This document shows positions 25,138 through 37,547 of a stretch of 37,547 bases of DNA, in pieces; position 1 is the stretch's first letter, and every line of letters starts with the position of its first letter. The notes below the pieces were generated by a model. It was not told the DNA's origin, did not search any database, and saw only the letters and a program-made list of their open reading frames with translations. Origin of the DNA: Oscillospiraceae bacterium (GTDB taxonomy: Bacteria > Bacillota > Clostridia > Oscillospirales > Acutalibacteraceae); NCBI GenBank assembly GCA_009777055.1, contig WRMQ01000017.1, forward strand, positions 1 through 37,547, read 5' to 3'. The position numbers and the translations under genes are program-made.

Positions 25138-26313
25138 TCACTGGCCATCCATGCACGCAATCAAAATGTCAATCGCCTCTTCCAGCAGATCCCTCGGGAT
25201 GTTCAGGGCGGGGAGGAGGCGTACCTTGTCCTTTGCCGTGAGAACAACAACGCCTTTCGCCAGGCATTGCGCCGCGATTTCCTTTGCCGGGCGAGCCGTT
25301 TTGATGCCGAGCATCAAGCCCAGGCCGGTGAGGCCCAGCACGCCGGGGGCCGCCTGGAGCTTTGCCCGCAGCCACGCGCCGCTTTCCCGCACCCGGGCCA
25401 GCAGGCTGTCGTTCAATTGATCCAGCACATACAGCGCGCCTGCCGCGCAGGCGGGGTTTCCCCCGAAGGTGGAGCCGTGGCTGCCGGGGCCCAGCGTGCC
25501 GGAAACGGCTTCGCCGAAGAGCGTCGCGCCAAAGGGGAGCCCCCCCGCCAGACCCTTCGCCGTGCTGACCAGATCGGGCCGGATGTCATACTGCTCAAAG
25601 GCGAAAAGGGTGCCCGTGCGCCCGTTGCCGGTCTGAACCTCGTCCAGCAACAGCAGGAGCTCCCGCTCTTTCGCGAGCTTCGCCGCCTCCCGGACGAAGG
25701 CCTGCTCCAGCGCGACGACGCCGCCCTCCCCCTGCACCAGCTCCAGCAGGATGGCGCAGCACTGCCCGTCGTGCTCGTCCAGCTGCCGTCTCAGGCTTTC
25801 GATATCATTGGGCCTTGCGTGGGCGAAGCCCGCCGGAAAAGGCCCGAAGTCGTGGTGAAAATCCGCCTGGCCGGTGGCGGCGAGGGTGGCCAGGGTGCGC
25901 CCGTGGAAGCTGTTTTCCAGGCTTACGATCACAGGCCTGACGTTTTCGCCCCATTTGTCGGCGGCGTATTTGCGCGCGCATTTGATCATGCACTCGTTGG
26001 CTTCCGCGCCGGAGTTGGAGAAAAAAACATTTTGCATGCCGCTGCGCTCGCACAGCGCCTGCGCCAGCTTTGCCGCGGGCTGTGTATAATACAGGTTCGA
26101 GCTGTGGGCCAGCGCGCGTAATTGCGCGGCCACGGTCTCCGCCCAGCCGCTGTCGGCCAGACCCAGGGTATTCACGGCGATGCCGCTGCCCAGGTCGATG
26201 TATTCCTTGCCCGTATCGTCCCAGAGCCGCGAGCCCTCCCCCCGCGTAAACGTAACGGGAAAGCGGGCGTAGGTGTTGGCGATATATTGATTGGTGAGCT
26301 CCTGTGTAGTCAT
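25138..26313 (-). CDS. argD: Acetylornithine aminotransferase
   Basis: A 391-residue class III PLP aminotransferase converting N-acetylglutamate semialdehyde to N-acetylornithine. Motifs are YIDLGSGIAVNTLG, FFSNSGAEANECMIKCAR, ENSFHGRTLATLAATGQ, LLLLDEVQTGNGRTG and the PLP lysine K253 in STAKGLAGGLPFG. An in-frame upstream extension exists, but AGGAAAGGG precedes ATG 26313. It lies at the far end of the arginine cluster, separated from argB by the GNAT/small-RNA insert, and no clear promoter of its own is visible on this strand. A small RNA is transcribed in the opposite direction from its leader. Confidence 0.95.
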   Translation of the reverse strand: MTTQELTNQYIANTYARFPVTFTRGEGSRLWDDTGKEYIDLGSGIAVNTLGLADSGWAETVAAQLRALAHSSNLYYTQPAAKLAQALCERSGMQNVFFSNSGAEANECMIKCARKYAADKWGENVRPVIVSLENSFHGRTLATLAATGQADFHHDFGPFPAGFAHARPNDIESLRRQLDEHDGQCCAILLELVQGEGGVVALEQAFVREAAKLAKERELLLLLDEVQTGNGRTGTLFAFEQYDIRPDLVSTAKGLAGGLPFGATLFGEAVSGTLGPGSHGSTFGGNPACAAGALYVLDQLNDSLLARVRESGAWLRAKLQAAPGVLGLTGLGLMLGIKTARPAKEIAAQCLAKGVVVLTAKDKVRLLPALNIPRDLLEEAIDILIACMDGQ

Positions 26314-26342
26314 AACGATCTGCCCTTTCCTGAAAAAAATTC

Positions 26343-26371
26343 TTGACAAACGGCATAATTGCCGCTATAAT
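26343..26371 (+). promoter_or_regulatory. Promoter of small RNA 1
   Basis: TTGACA (26343-26348), 17 bases, TATAAT (26366-26371); perfect consensus, only 30 bases upstream of argD but reading the other way. Confidence 0.85.
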
Positions 26372-26377
26372 AGAAGT

Positions 26378-26478
26378 AGAAAGCGACGCTGCCGGAACAC
26401 GGCTGCCGTCTCTAATCCTCAAAGTGATTAAAGAAGTAACCGCCCGTGTTTTCGACGCGCGAGGGCGGTTACTTCTTT
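26378..26478 (+). ncRNA. Small RNA 1, par/RatA-like antitoxin candidate (orphan)
   Basis: A predicted transcript of about 100 nt between its promoter and a hairpin. The 5' module (26385-26424) folds as GACG..GCCG, loop GAACA, CGGC..CGTC and ends TCTAATCCTCAAAG; it is identical over 40 bases to small RNA 2. The 3' end is AAAGAAGTAACCGCCC (26430-26445) pairing perfectly with GGGCGGTTACTTCTTT (26463-26478); the terminal loop (TTTTCGACG) differs from that of RNA 2. No open reading frame. On the opposite strand, where a toxin gene would be expected, the GNAT gene ends instead, followed by a short relic-like frame ending AAG AAG TAA. Confidence 0.7.
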
Positions 26479-26505
26479 GCAACCGCCGCACCGGAAACCA
26501 AAAAG

Positions 26506-26937
26506 TCAACTGATTTCTGCTGTTCTCAAATTTCGGTAGAGAATGTCCTCCCGCCGCCGGGAGCCCAGAGCGTCCCAGAAGGCGTTGCCGGTTTCGTTGC
26601 CGCGAAAGACCATCATACCGCACTGCGCGATGCCCTCCCGGCGCAGCACGGCCAGGCAGGCGTTGATGAGCGCCTTGCCGATGCCTCTGCCCCGCCAATC
26701 CTCCCGCACGGCCAGATGGTTGATATAGCCCCGGCGGCCATCGTTGCCGCAGAGCACCGCGCCCACGGTTTCGCCGTGCTCGTTTTCCGCTACAAAGCAG
26801 GTCTCCGGGTTGCGTTTCAGATAGTAAGCGATCCCCTCGCGGGAATCCTCGCCCTCGTGCAGGCCGATACCCGGCAGGCTGGCCCAAAGGGCGTATACGG
26901 CGTCGTAGTCATCAATTGTCATCATGCGTATTGTCAT
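26506..26937 (-). CDS. GNAT-family N-acetyltransferase, YpeA-like
   Basis: A 143-residue acetyltransferase. The acetyl-CoA motif is VREDWRGRGIGKALINA; other family features are LPGIGLHEGEDSREGIAYYL, CFVAENEHGETVGAVLCGNDGRRGYINHLAV and the C-terminal NETGNAFWDALGSRRREDILYRN, typical of the YpeA-like group whose substrate is unknown. AAGGA lies nine bases before the ATG. It sits between the two small RNAs and within the arginine cluster. A role as N-acetylglutamate synthase is not supported: ArgJ already provides that and the motifs are of the general group. Confidence 0.88.
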   Translation of the reverse strand: MTIRMMTIDDYDAVYALWASLPGIGLHEGEDSREGIAYYLKRNPETCFVAENEHGETVGAVLCGNDGRRGYINHLAVREDWRGRGIGKALINACLAVLRREGIAQCGMMVFRGNETGNAFWDALGSRRREDILYRNLRTAEIS

Positions 26938-27026
26938 ATGAGCTTTTCCTTTTTTGCTTTTTCTTTTTTTGCTTTTTGCTCTTTCTTTATTCGCGAATTT
27001 ACTTTTTTAAATTTCGCGATTTGGTG

Positions 27027-27055
27027 TTGACAAAACGCTGGAAATCTGCTAAGAT
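27027..27055 (+). promoter_or_regulatory. Promoter of small RNA 2
   Basis: TTGACA (27027-27032), 17 bases, TAAGAT (27050-27055). It follows an imperfect inverted repeat (TCGCGAATTT and AAATTTCGCGA, near 26991-27019). Confidence 0.8.
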
Positions 27056-27061
27056 GTGAAT

Positions 27062-27166
27062 AGAGGTTGACGCTGCCGGAACACGGCTGCCGTCTCTAAT
27101 CCTCAAAGCTGAGTTTTAAAGAAGTAACCGCCCGTGTTTCTGAGGCACGAGGGCGGTTACTTCTTT
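27062..27166 (+). ncRNA. Small RNA 2, candidate type I antitoxin
   Basis: A predicted transcript of about 105 nt. Its 5' module (27069-27108) is identical to that of RNA 1; its 3' hairpin has arms 27118-27133 and 27151-27166 (16 bp perfect), extended by GTG/CAC, with loop TTTCTGAGG. The hairpin begins with AAAGAA and ends with TTCTTT, so it can end transcription in both directions. The convergent 47-codon mRNA uses the same DNA as terminator, and the two loops are therefore exactly complementary, which permits loop-loop contact as in the par (RNA I/RNA II) system. The ATCCTC in the 5' module can also pair with the GGGGAT ribosome site of that mRNA. Confidence 0.75.
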
Positions 27167-27300
27167 ATGTGTTCAACCAAAAGGCAGAACCGATGCAGGA
27201 CTGCTGAAAAAGCCGTGATGGCCAGCGATGGGTCGCTGAGCATCCCTGCGCTCAATAATTCGAGCGCCACCTGCAAAAAAGCACTGTATGTTGCTTTCAT
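27157..27300 (-). CDS. 47-residue peptide convergent with small RNA 2 (candidate type I toxin)
   Basis: The ORF reads MKATYSAFLQVALELLSAGM, then LSDPSLAITAFSAVLHRFCL, then LVEHIKK. It has two moderately hydrophobic, helix-prone stretches (about 5-20 and 25-42) and a Lys-Lys end. I do not recognise the family; it lacks the single strong membrane helix of Fst, TxpA and holin-like toxins. Its last codons, AAG AAG TAA, form the first arm of the shared terminator, as in holin-like type I toxin genes. It has a consensus promoter, an 82-nt leader, and AAAGGGG about ten bases before the ATG. The leader can hide that site (see findings). An ordinary short gene without toxicity remains possible. Confidence 0.65.
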   Translation of the reverse strand: MKATYSAFLQVALELLSAGMLSDPSLAITAFSAVLHRFCLLVEHIKK

Positions 27301-27388
27301 AAAGGCACCATCCCCTTTCGTTAGCGTTCCGAAAAGCGCTAAGAGGATTCAGGGACTGGTACAACCGCCGCTCCGGCAGCGTCAAGCC

Positions 27389-27417
27389 ATTTTACACCAG
27401 ATTTTGCAAAATGTCAA
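27389..27417 (-). promoter_or_regulatory. Promoter of the 47-codon mRNA
   Basis: Minus strand TTGACA (27417-27412), 17 bases, TAAAAT (27394-27389). The RNA should begin close to 27383, where the GACGCTGCCGGA module shared with the small RNAs starts. The promoter lies 22 bases beyond the argB stop. Confidence 0.8.
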
Positions 27418-27439
27418 CAAAAATACTTGAAGAAGCATG

Positions 27440-28297
27440 CTAAAAAAACATGGTGCCGATGCCCGCGTCCGTTAAGACCTCGATCAGGATGGAGTGGGGG
27501 ATCCGGCCATCCAGGATAAAGGCCCGGCGTACGCCGCCGCGCAGGGCCTCCACGCAGCACTCCACCTTGGGGATCATGCCGCCGGAGAGAATGCCATCCT
27601 CTATCAGCTGGGGGACGTCGTCTGTCTTTACCCGGCGGATAAGGCTGCTTTCATCGCTGACATCCCGCAGCAGGCCGGGAATGTCGGACATGGAGATGAG
27701 GCTTTCGGCCTTTAACGCCGCGGCGATATGGGCGGCGGCGGTGTCGGCGTTGATGTTGTAGGCGCCGCCGTCCCCGTTGCAGCCGATGGTGGAGATGATG
27801 GGGATGTAGCCGCTTTCCAGCAGGTCCAGCACCGGCGCGGGGTCTACGCCGACGATTTCGCCCACATAGCCCAGGGCGGGGTCCAGCTGCCGCACGCGGA
27901 TCATGCGGCCGTCCATGCCGCTCAGGCCGATGGCGTGGCGGCCGAAGGTTTCCATAAGGGCCACAAGGCCCTTGTTGATCTTTCCGGCCAGCACCATCAG
28001 AGCCACCTCGGCGGTCTCTTTATCCGTCACCCGCAGGCCGTTGATGAACGCTGTGGCCTTGCCCATGCGCGCGAGCAGGTCGGAGATCTCGGGCCCGCCG
28101 CCGTGCACCAGCACCACGCGGATGCCCACCAGGTGCAGCAGGGCGATGTCGCCCATCACCTGGCGCTTGAGCTCCTCGTTGAGCATGGCCGCGCCGCCGT
28201 ATTTGATCACGATGATCTTATTGTGATATTTTTGAATATAGGGCAGGGCCTCCACTAAAATAGTCGCCCGCTGCTCATGGCTGATCGTAAGATCCAT
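27440..28297 (-). CDS. argB: Acetylglutamate kinase
   Basis: A 285-residue amino-acid kinase phosphorylating N-acetylglutamate. Family motifs are IIVIKYGGAAM, VVLVHGGGPEISDLL, FINGLRVTDKET, GLSGMDGRMIRV, YNINADTAAAHIAAAL and ILSGGMIPKVECCVEAL. The arginine-sensitive type has an extended N-terminal helix; the short segment before KIIVIKYGG here (ILVEALPYIQKYHNK) matches that type, so feedback by arginine is likely. GGGAG precedes ATG 28297 (GTG 28309 is too close). Its first 23 bases overlap the end of the GH35 gene, suggesting translational coupling. Confidence 0.95.
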   Translation of the reverse strand: MDLTISHEQRATILVEALPYIQKYHNKIIVIKYGGAAMLNEELKRQVMGDIALLHLVGIRVVLVHGGGPEISDLLARMGKATAFINGLRVTDKETAEVALMVLAGKINKGLVALMETFGRHAIGLSGMDGRMIRVRQLDPALGYVGEIVGVDPAPVLDLLESGYIPIISTIGCNGDGGAYNINADTAAAHIAAALKAESLISMSDIPGLLRDVSDESSLIRRVKTDDVPQLIEDGILSGGMIPKVECCVEALRGGVRRAFILDGRIPHSILIEVLTDAGIGTMFF

Positions 28298-30080
28298 CTT
28301 TTTCCGCACTCCCTTTGTCCGCCCCGATATCGGGCGTATCGTCTATTGTAAGCTCCCGCGCCGCGCCGCCTTCCAGCTCCAGCACGAGAAGCTCGTTTTC
28401 TTTTTCGGTGAAAAGCCAGCAGCCGGGGCAGTACAGCGCCTGCTGCGGGCCGATCTCCCAGTAGCGGCCCAGGTTGCGGCCATTGACGAAGAGATAGCCC
28501 TTCTTCAGGCCGTCGCAGTGGATGAAGCAGTCGCCCCGGGATTTCGCCTGGAATGTCCCGCGCAGAATCTGGGGCTGGCTGGGGTCCACGGAAGCCGCGT
28601 CCTGGTATTCCAGGCCGCTGAAATCCTCCAGCTCCATGGAATAGACATCGAAATGAGACAGCAACTGGTTTTGGATACGAATCTGGCGCGCGCCCTTTCT
28701 GTCGTGCAGGTTCGGGCCGTAATTCGCCCGCCCCATGGCGTCCGTCAGCACGTCGATTTGCCCGCCCTTTGGCAGAATGCCCAGGGGGAGCTTTGTGTCC
28801 GGCGGGTCGTTGCGGTCCAGCTGGCCCGCCCGTTTGCCGTCCACAAACACGCTGGCCCGGTCGGCCAGGCCGTCGATATAGAGGTCGCAGTTTTCCTGCG
28901 GGCCCTCCAGCCGGCTTCGGTAGAGGATCAGGCCGAAGCTCTGGCCGTAATATTCCATGCTTTCGGGCATGACGCTTTTGTGATGCCTGGCCAGAGCATC
29001 CAGATGCTCAAACAGCGCGGCGCTTTGCCTGAGCTTTACCTTGCCTATCGTCTGAAGAACCGGCTCGGAGGGGAGCGGGGGCTCTTTTTCGATATCGCGC
29101 CCCTGGGCGTCCAATAAGAGCTTACGCACAGCGTGGTATTTTGGTGTATAGTTCCCGTATTCCCCCAGCAGGGTGTCGTAGTCGTAGCTCGTGACCATGG
29201 GCTCGTATTTCAGGCCGCAGTTGGCACCCGCGCCAAAGCCGAAATTCGTGCCCCCGTGGAACATATAGAGATTCGCCGTGCCGCCCATGTCCAGGATTTC
29301 CTTCAGCGAGGCGGCGGTCTCTTCGGCGGAGCGGGTATGGTGCTCCTCCCCCCAGTGGTCAAACCAGCCGTTCCAGAATTCGCAGCAGAACAGCGGGCCT
29401 TCCGGCTGATACCCGCGCAGCACGTCGAAGTTTTTCCGCGCGCCGCTGCCGAAGTTGGCCGTTTTGAACAAATGGGGCAGGGTGCCGCCGCTGAGCATGT
29501 TTTCCCAGCCGCCGTCAGAGGTGAACAGGGGCGCCTCGATCCCGTTTTCGCGCATGCTTTTTTCAAGAAAGCGCAGGTATTCCTTGTCGCTGCCGTAGCT
29601 GCCGTATTCGTTTTCCACCTGCATCATGATGATGTTGCCGCCGCGCGTGATTTGCAGCGGCGCGAGAATGGGCAGCAGCGTCTCATAATAAGACTTTACG
29701 GCGGCGAGATAGGGCGCATAGCTGCAGCGCAGGCGCATGCCGGGGTCCTTGAGCAGCCAGGCGGGCAGCCCGCCGAAATCCCACTCGGCGCAGATATAAG
29801 GGCTCGGCCGCACAATGGCATATAAGCCCAGCTTTTGCGCGAGCCTCAAAAAGCCCGCGATGTCCAGCATATCGCTGAAGTCGAACAGACCGGGCCTGGG
29901 CTCGTGCATGTTCCAGGGAACATAGGTTTCCACGGTGTTGCAGCCCAGGGCCTTCAGCTTTCGCAGGCGGTCCTCCCAATACTCCGCCGGCACGCGGAAG
30001 TAGTGAATAGAGCCCGCGTGCAGGGCGAATTTTTCATCGTCCAGATAGAACCCGTCGGCTCCGATGGTGAATTGCGGCAT
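28275..30080 (-). CDS. GH35 beta-galactosidase, cytosolic
   Basis: A 601-residue glycoside hydrolase family 35 enzyme that removes terminal beta-galactose. The (beta/alpha)8 domain carries GSIHYFRVPAEYWEDRLRKL, GCNTVETYVPWNMHEP, RPSPYICAEWDFGGLPAWLL, the acid/base region MMQVENEYGSYG (E156/E158) and the nucleophile region CCEFWNGWFDHWG (E234). C-terminal jelly-roll domains end in GYLFVNGRNLGRYWEIGPQQALYCPG. No signal peptide, so it acts on imported oligosaccharides. GGAGG eight bases before the ATG. It lies inside the arginine cluster, 27 bases after argJ and overlapping argB, an unusual place for a catabolic enzyme. Confidence 0.95.
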   Translation of the reverse strand: MPQFTIGADGFYLDDEKFALHAGSIHYFRVPAEYWEDRLRKLKALGCNTVETYVPWNMHEPRPGLFDFSDMLDIAGFLRLAQKLGLYAIVRPSPYICAEWDFGGLPAWLLKDPGMRLRCSYAPYLAAVKSYYETLLPILAPLQITRGGNIIMMQVENEYGSYGSDKEYLRFLEKSMRENGIEAPLFTSDGGWENMLSGGTLPHLFKTANFGSGARKNFDVLRGYQPEGPLFCCEFWNGWFDHWGEEHHTRSAEETAASLKEILDMGGTANLYMFHGGTNFGFGAGANCGLKYEPMVTSYDYDTLLGEYGNYTPKYHAVRKLLLDAQGRDIEKEPPLPSEPVLQTIGKVKLRQSAALFEHLDALARHHKSVMPESMEYYGQSFGLILYRSRLEGPQENCDLYIDGLADRASVFVDGKRAGQLDRNDPPDTKLPLGILPKGGQIDVLTDAMGRANYGPNLHDRKGARQIRIQNQLLSHFDVYSMELEDFSGLEYQDAASVDPSQPQILRGTFQAKSRGDCFIHCDGLKKGYLFVNGRNLGRYWEIGPQQALYCPGCWLFTEKENELLVLELEGGAARELTIDDTPDIGADKGSAEKDGSYDQP

Positions 30081-36830: not shown

Positions 36831-36863
36831 AGAATTTTTAAGCAAAAATAGTTTCAAGCAAAA

Positions 36864-36908
36864 AAGCCTGCCCGGGCGCGCTGTGCCCGGGCAGGCTTTG
36901 CTTTTTTC
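36864..36908. terminator. Bidirectional intrinsic terminator
   Basis: AAGCCTGCCCGGGC (36864-36877) pairs with GCCCGGGCAGGCTT (36885-36898) around a seven-base loop. On the plus strand it is followed by TTTGCTTTTTT-like sequence, and on the minus strand by a T-run from the preceding A6. It serves the plus-strand membrane protein gene and the convergent pheT. Confidence 0.92.
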
Positions 36909-36941
36909 TATCATAAGAACTCGAGAACTCGCGAGAAAAAT

Positions 36942-37547
36942 CTAAACGCCTTTTCTGGCAATCCCCGCCTTGCCCAGCGCCTCCACAATCCGCGCGACAT
37001 CCTCCTGCACCTCGTCCATGAGCAGGCTGCGCCCGCCGGATACAAAGGTCAGGCGAATGGCCAGGCTGGTCTCTCCCCCGGCCTCGTAGTAGTCCGCCAG
37101 GGCGGCGGACTGCAGCGTTTCGCAGCCCACGCTTTGGAGGATCCCCTCGATTTTGCCATAGGTATCCTCTTCGTTCAAAACAAGGGAAAGGTCGATGGCG
37201 ACGGAGGGGTAGCTGGAGGGCGCGGCGTAGCGGAAATTGGCGGCGGGAATCTCCGCGAAGGCGTCCATGTCCAGCTCCGCGACGGCCACGGCGGCCTTTT
37301 TCTCGATAGGGGCCTTGCGGTTGACAAGGTCCAGCTGCCCGCGAACCCTCGGATGCAGCACGGAAATCAGCCCCAGGGCCTGCCCGTCAAGGGATACGGC
37401 GGCGCTGTTGACCGGATGCAGCCAGTCGTGGGCGGGCGCTTCCAGGGCGCTGAACTCCAGCGGCTTGTGCTTCAGGCTGTCGGCGATATAAACAAGGGCC
37501 TCCTTCAGGCGGAAGAAGAGCGCGCGCTCCGTGGCCTCGCGGGCGTA
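36942..37547 (-). CDS. pheT: Phenylalanyl-tRNA synthetase beta subunit, C-terminal part
   Basis: The last 201 residues of PheT; the frame is open to the window edge, so the gene is cut by the window and not broken. The part seen comprises the end of the core (FFRLKEALVYIADSLKHKP, DWLHPVNSAAVSLDGQALGLI, VLHPRVRGQLDL) and the FDX-ACB anticodon-binding domain (SSYPSVAIDLSLVLNEEDTYGKIEGIL...ETSLAIRLTFVSGGRSLLMDEVQEDVARIVEAL). The domain's usual RRDLA is replaced by AIDLS, a small divergence. pheS should lie beyond the right edge. Confidence 0.94.
   Translation of the reverse strand, partial: YAREATERALFFRLKEALVYIADSLKHKPLEFSALEAPAHDWLHPVNSAAVSLDGQALGLISVLHPRVRGQLDLVNRKAPIEKKAAVAVAELDMDAFAEIPAANFRYAAPSSYPSVAIDLSLVLNEEDTYGKIEGILQSVGCETLQSAALADYYEAGGETSLAIRLTFVSGGRSLLMDEVQEDVARIVEALGKAGIARKGV

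Follow-up and report, generated by a model that had tools for sequence, protein, structure and literature searches.

Several small-peptide loci silenced by RNA resemble in design the one described here. In the par/Fst locus of pAD1, facing promoters lead to a bidirectional terminator, the leader hides the toxin Shine-Dalgarno sequence, the toxin loop has a U-turn, and the 5' repeats (DRa and DRb) are direct and give rise to antisense pairing (PMC7472228). TxpA/RatA of B. subtilis has a toxin of 59 residues, which is silenced by decay through a duplex at the 3' ends (PMC8167048). The type I modules of C. difficile comprise small peptides silenced by antisense RNAs and are mostly found in prophages (PMC6563280).

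Here we describe a locus in a 37,547-nt stretch of Oscillospiraceae DNA (the window, meaning this whole stretch at its full length) that looks like a small toxin gene with a facing silencing RNA, apparently inserted into an arginine-synthesis operon. The RNA-silenced toxin would be of a known general kind, but its peptide is unclassified and its layout, being mirrored, is unusual. Compared by description, the locus is like the C. difficile modules in having an RNA-silenced small peptide in Clostridia and unlike them in lying in the arg operon, and its 47-residue peptide is set apart, again by description, from the longer TxpA. The par/Fst design put forward in the original prediction holds in part: the convergent promoters and shared terminator are present as sequence features, the leader is predicted to hide the Shine-Dalgarno sequence, and the toxin loop has a U-turn, whereas the 5' repeats are inverted and same-sense rather than direct and antisense, and the peptide has no match to Fst. 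By the features tested, the module would not be a member of par/Fst.

We consider it probable that the locus is a type I toxin-antitoxin module of the chromosome. The original prediction of a type I pair whose partners share a bidirectional terminator, and whose peptide is of a new family, is supported by conservation, by covariation, by homologues of the peptide and by the module-free sites of relatives. The analysis in silico shows the layout, the covariation of the RNA structure, the peptide family, the homology of the leaders, the module-free junctions and the loss of a toxin with its RNA kept, whereas transcription, toxicity, inhibition of one RNA by the other, and the choice between decay and a translation block are inferred. 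The locus would add a toxin peptide family that no model in the searched libraries covers, and its RNA ties this family to Hol_Tox-like loci and suggests that one antitoxin layout serves several peptide families. Its solo copies and module-free sites are natural material for asking why antitoxins outlast toxins and by what steps these modules move and decay.

Layout of the locus

Four promoter-like sites occur in 26300-27500, as against 0.6 +/- 0.7 in shuffled sequence. Two of these face each other with 17-base spacing, as had been predicted: TTGACA-17-TAAGAT on the plus strand (27027-27055; 10 of 12 consensus bases, with a TG) and TTGACA-17-TAAAAT on the minus strand (27389-27417; 11 of 12). 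The separation had been put at about 355 bp, a figure we correct to 391 bp between the outer edges of the -35 elements and about 320 between the likely start sites. The plus-strand promoter would direct the putative antitoxin RNA (small RNA 2, 27062-27169, about 108 nt), in which GAGG at 27063-27066 pairs with CCTC at 27101-27104 to close a 5' domain. The minus-strand promoter is followed by a leader of about 80 nt (27301-27382), whose 5' part is homologous in the same sense to the antitoxin RNA and which contains the pyrimidine motif AATCCTC (27343-27349, minus strand; the second copy is in the antitoxin at 27098-27104, plus strand) and the Shine-Dalgarno sequence AAAGGGG (27312-27318, minus strand). 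The 47-codon open reading frame P0001 (27157-27300, minus strand) follows. The arrangement of a plus-strand RNA against a minus-strand ORF is thus present as originally proposed, and both RNAs are predicted to be structured, with fold z-scores of -6.5 (plus) and -5.5 (minus).

The two RNAs would end in one bidirectional terminator (27117-27167, both strands), the predicted shared hairpin, with arms at 27117-27133 and 27151-27167 that are 17 nt each and 100% complementary. The last codons of P0001 lie inside an arm, so that its C-terminus, IKK-stop, is encoded by the hairpin as the original prediction had it: the same A-rich bases are read as lysine codons on one strand and supply the T tract that ends the antitoxin on the other. 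A simple terminator scan did not flag the window hairpin, the T tract of which is broken and inside the stem. From the wider set 48 peptides were selected, and 39 of these end in two basic residues. Since both RNAs end in this one terminator, about 50 nt of their 3' ends would be complementary if both are transcribed. The terminator loops, TTTCTGAGG and CCTCAGAAA, are complementary, as predicted, because any shared hairpin requires this. The toxin-strand loop of the window contains the U-turn motif YUNR, which is present in 20 of the 48 toxin loops compared, where 9.1 would be expected.

The putative antitoxin RNA and toxin peptide across genomes

A family search with RNA and peptide models in other genomes, as the original prediction had suggested, recovered both partners. 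The RNA model found seven strong copies in the window's own genome and matches at E <= 0.01 in 31 of 148 genomes including this one; the genus has 14 genomes in the set, 9 of them with a match. Both counts are upper figures, because the fetched matches of three genomes (G007, G023 and G039) resemble plain gene terminators. In an alignment of 49 matches fitted to the model, two-sided pair changes were seen in 125 cells against 34 +/- 6 in shuffles (none of 500 shuffles equalled this), with a covariation score of 0.289 versus 0.037-0.048 in slid controls; seven of the 49 had built the model, three more read terminators in antisense, and any alignment fitted to a model favours the model's structure. 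In helix 1 of the model the CCTC motif pairs and covaries with the RNA's own 5' end.

For the gene contexts we collected 74 RNA loci, made up of 67 rows (E up to about 1e-4, two of them from the own genome; the selection took in most but not every row down to this E value, and no weaker row) and the seven strong own copies. Automatic sorting placed 48 as having an intact ORF with a Shine-Dalgarno sequence, 12 as altered or remnant, 12 as having none and 2 as cut by a contig end. Three of the 12 altered loci (the second copy in L118 and two in L123) are actually intact, raising the intact set to at least 51 of 74; at L067 the ORF is whole and has no stop in the arm. Five of the 12 loci without a toxin (L078, L089, L094, L112 and L121) were not counted as solo antitoxins, since what the model picked up there is probably a plain gene terminator, and a weak RNA-like match on both strands at 36831-36949 of the window was likewise rejected, as by eye it is an ordinary convergent terminator. 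L110 (G000:C18:1-1526) is a tandem pair of loci for 26-residue short peptides with the same type of RNA; in the second of the pair the start of the toxin has been lost.

Rfam held no relevant family, either at the gathering cut-off over the whole window (which returned only a tRNA) or at E <= 10 over 26300-27500. Plasmid and phage records contained no DNA similar to 26300-27480; among viral contigs, 42 stretches matched a pattern, none of them a relative of the peptide, and there was no exact match to 19 leader bases.

The peptides facing these RNAs fall into group A (about 46 residues, including that of the window), group B (26-30), group C (23-26) and group D (Hol_Tox-like). Group A was recovered at E < 1e-4 in 6 of 60 genomes, all of them among the 14 of the window's genus; the next match, outside the genus, has E 0.002 and an internal stop. 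An RNA match adjoins 18 of the 19 peptide matches at E < 1e-4, the 19th lying at a contig end. Among named genomes, 7 loci turned up in three MAGs called Oscillospiraceae or Bacillota bacterium, which come from termite guts. The window peptide is a divergent member of group A, with 21-38% identity. When a profile built on 10 other-genome peptides was run against the window and six own loci (1132 six-frame segments), it ranked this ORF first within the window (E 0.003), and the five best segments overall were all ORFs facing an RNA copy, although two of these five are one place fetched twice. In whole-genome searches a similar model of other-genome peptides gave the window ORF only E 0.02 and own C24 0.06, and own C2 was absent at E <= 1.

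P0001 had only sub-cut-off matches in Pfam and NCBIfam, each of which presumably contains an Fst model, and no match to Fst in either at E <= 10; own C6 had only sub-cut-off matches in Pfam, and PADLOC returned no match for six peptides. Together with the homologues in six genomes of the genus, this supports the suggested assignment to a new family. AlphaFold models the window peptide as two helices (3-19 and 24-46; pLDDT 74, pTM 0.36), and it has no clear single membrane helix, its maximal 19-residue hydropathy being 1.58 versus 2.01 for a Hol_Tox-like peptide.

We think it improbable that the locus is instead a regulatory RNA pair with a shared transcription stop in the arg operon and an unused ORF. 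Solo copies that keep the RNA and terminator and have no ORF would fit this, as would the dN/dS of 0.54 in group A (13 pairs; 0.23 in the 81 pairs of group B). In favour of the module, dN is below dS in 13 of 13 group A pairs. Against the unused ORF, an ORF with a Shine-Dalgarno sequence is present at the majority of RNA loci counted above, and the peptides are homologous between genomes, most ending at the identical base of the terminator arm.

Mirrored leaders and the putative silencing mechanism

The two RNAs were originally thought to be related only at the terminator. That is where their certain complementarity lies, but the homology of their 5' leaders in the same sense had been overlooked. 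Their first 14 nt, TTGACGCTGCCGGA, are identical (27067-27080 and 27372-27385), and downstream both have AATCCTC; the DNA therefore contains an inverted repeat. When the antitoxin 5' part was compared with the toxin leader in the 48 intact-ORF loci, 31 loci showed same-sense similarity at p <= 0.05 against dinucleotide shuffles and 2 showed antisense similarity, the same-sense match being non-significant in 17. In the window the corresponding p-values are 0.005 and 0.91, and the three intact own-genome loci of its family score 30, 40 and 42 in the same sense. Among titles and abstract beginnings outside the subscription literature, to which early type I family surveys belong, neither the window's peptide family nor a same-sense leader repeat was seen to be reported.

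The loci of Hol_Tox (PF16935), a putative holin-like toxin, show a comparable organization, with a facing leader-bearing RNA, a shared terminator and a lysine-rich end at that terminator. Of 13 such loci, from 17 matches, 12 have the same-sense leader repeat and 2 an antisense one, with the matched stretch taking in the -10 region in a few of the 13. Moreover, some RNA-model loci encode Hol_Tox-like peptides (best 20.8 bits against a cut-off of 23.3). The window peptide differs in its 47 residues and two predicted helices rather than a single hydrophobic span; it has no match to PF16935, for which the own genome gave 0 matches at E <= 10.

On the favoured reading the minus strand would yield an mRNA for a two-helix, 47-residue peptide, presumed toxic to the producing cell, and the plus strand a structured RNA of about 110 nt. 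The window's Shine-Dalgarno sequence is predicted to pair with the upstream leader with probability 0.68, versus 0.45 with shuffled leaders; a promoter was identified at 40 loci, and at 35 of these such pairing exceeded that of shuffled leaders (mean 0.75 versus 0.57, Wilcoxon p 2e-7); in group A, by eye, it involves the pyrimidine motif or its neighbour in 9 of the 11 loci listed. Given this predicted pairing, the toxin mRNA would be hard to translate from birth. First contact with the antitoxin would probably be made by the two terminator loops, with the U-turn in the toxin loop, and the resulting duplex would then remove or silence the toxin mRNA. We favour this route because the terminator is the one certain complementarity and a second contact is weakly supported.

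Such a second contact would arise if, in a par/Fst-like manner, the antitoxin pyrimidine motif (AATCCTC and its kin) blocked the toxin Shine-Dalgarno sequence in addition to the terminator contact. In the window's family the most pyrimidine-rich 5' 12-mer of the antitoxin does pair with the cognate Shine-Dalgarno sequence at -10.6 versus -9.2 kcal/mol for shuffles (1 of 200 shuffles equal), and across the 48 loci only 5 of 200 shuffles were as good, with a partner-permutation p of 0.0016. But the preference for the cognate partner is weak inside the window's family (p 0.12), in group B 79 of 200 shuffles did as well (p 0.07), and the antitoxin motif appears hidden, as it covaries with the RNA's own 5' end in helix 1. 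Whole-leader duplex energies between the two RNAs do not exceed those of shuffles (mean z 0.16, 48 loci), and we rejected them as evidence of pairing in trans. This additional block therefore seems to us rather unlikely.

To silencing as in TxpA/RatA, in which RNase III would cut the 3' duplex and the toxin mRNA would decay with no direct block of translation, we give roughly even chances. Complete complementarity at the 3' ends argues for it. So does the layout shared with Hol_Tox loci, since that family includes a B. subtilis match above the cut-off. The overlap here is, on the other hand, about 50 nt and wholly terminator, shorter than the RatA-TxpA overlap, and decay by this route leaves the leader repeat without a role. 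Between the two outcomes of the terminator-initiated duplex, we consider decay more likely than a direct translation block.

More speculatively, these loci might form a Clostridia-wide type I class with several unrelated-looking toxins, Hol_Tox included, and mirror-copy 5' leaders, in which the motif hides the toxin Shine-Dalgarno sequence and closes the antitoxin 5' end. The promoter-leader copies might bound the module like terminal repeats, and the module might spread as a unit between operon genes and leave solo antitoxins on deletion of the toxin. We regard this generalization as doubtful though conceivable.

Probable insertion in the arg operon and probable loss of a toxin

In the window, argB, argD and argJ were named by NCBIfam matches over the cut-off and a GNAT acetyltransferase by a Pfam match over the cut-off. 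The GNAT gene (143 residues, 26506-26937, minus strand) lies between argB and argD, and a role for its product in arginine synthesis would be a guess. An ORF at 28275-30080 (minus strand), between argJ and argB and overlapping the argB 5' end by 35 nt, has weak, sub-cut-off GH35 and glucosaminidase matches suggestive of a glycoside hydrolase.

We compared 11 argB loci from the same genus. In 6 of them the alignment ends of argB and GNAT are separated by 18-95 nt, versus 506 in the window, and those of GNAT and argD are 0-24 nt apart in 5 of the 11 versus 196. In the remaining five argB loci GNAT is absent from the compared stretch (four) or lies 1.2 kb off (L177). None of the 11 has an RNA match at E <= 1. 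Because argB and GNAT adjoin without the module in six relatives, the simplest reading is that it was inserted between them; its loss in all the relatives would be a less simple one. The many copies, the inverted leader copies and these module-free sites could also suggest a non-autonomous insertion element that has no toxin function and whose ends are promoter-like inverted repeats by chance. We judge this very improbable: by eye, the junctions show no target duplication, and promoter spacing, Shine-Dalgarno sequence and reading frame are preserved across loci.

Between GNAT and argD, a second copy of the module appears to have lost its toxin to leave a solo antitoxin. Its promoter (TTGACA-17-TATAAT, 26343-26371, plus strand) matches the consensus in 12 of 12 bases, and its RNA (small RNA 1, 26372-26481, plus strand) is 92% identical to small RNA 2 across the matched part, with no toxin ORF on the opposite strand. 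At 26480-26494 (minus strand) a deleted toxin leader has left a 15-base scar, which agrees with 27362-27376 at 14 positions (93%). The two inserted terminators would be expected to affect transcription of the arg operon.

RNA copies without a toxin also occur in the own genome (C17a, C87 and C16) and at L075 (twice), L101 and L119; leader-to-terminator deletions like that of the solo copy are seen at L075 (twice) and L101, and own C24 has a truncated toxin. Conversely, no group A toxin without the RNA was found among the 18 evaluable matches in 60 genomes. A harmful gene accompanied by a protective partner would be expected to be lost in this one-sided way. Homologues with a conserved hairpin and no conserved ORF had been named in the original prediction as evidence against a toxin; they exist at some copies, and look like secondary loss of the toxin at otherwise conserved loci.

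Two further loci show other arrangements. In L177 (G012:C44) the approximately 1.2 kb between argB and GNAT contains no RNA match. In L075 (G006:C90) the two solo antitoxins lie about 680 nt apart, and at each the toxin promoter and leader run directly into the terminator.
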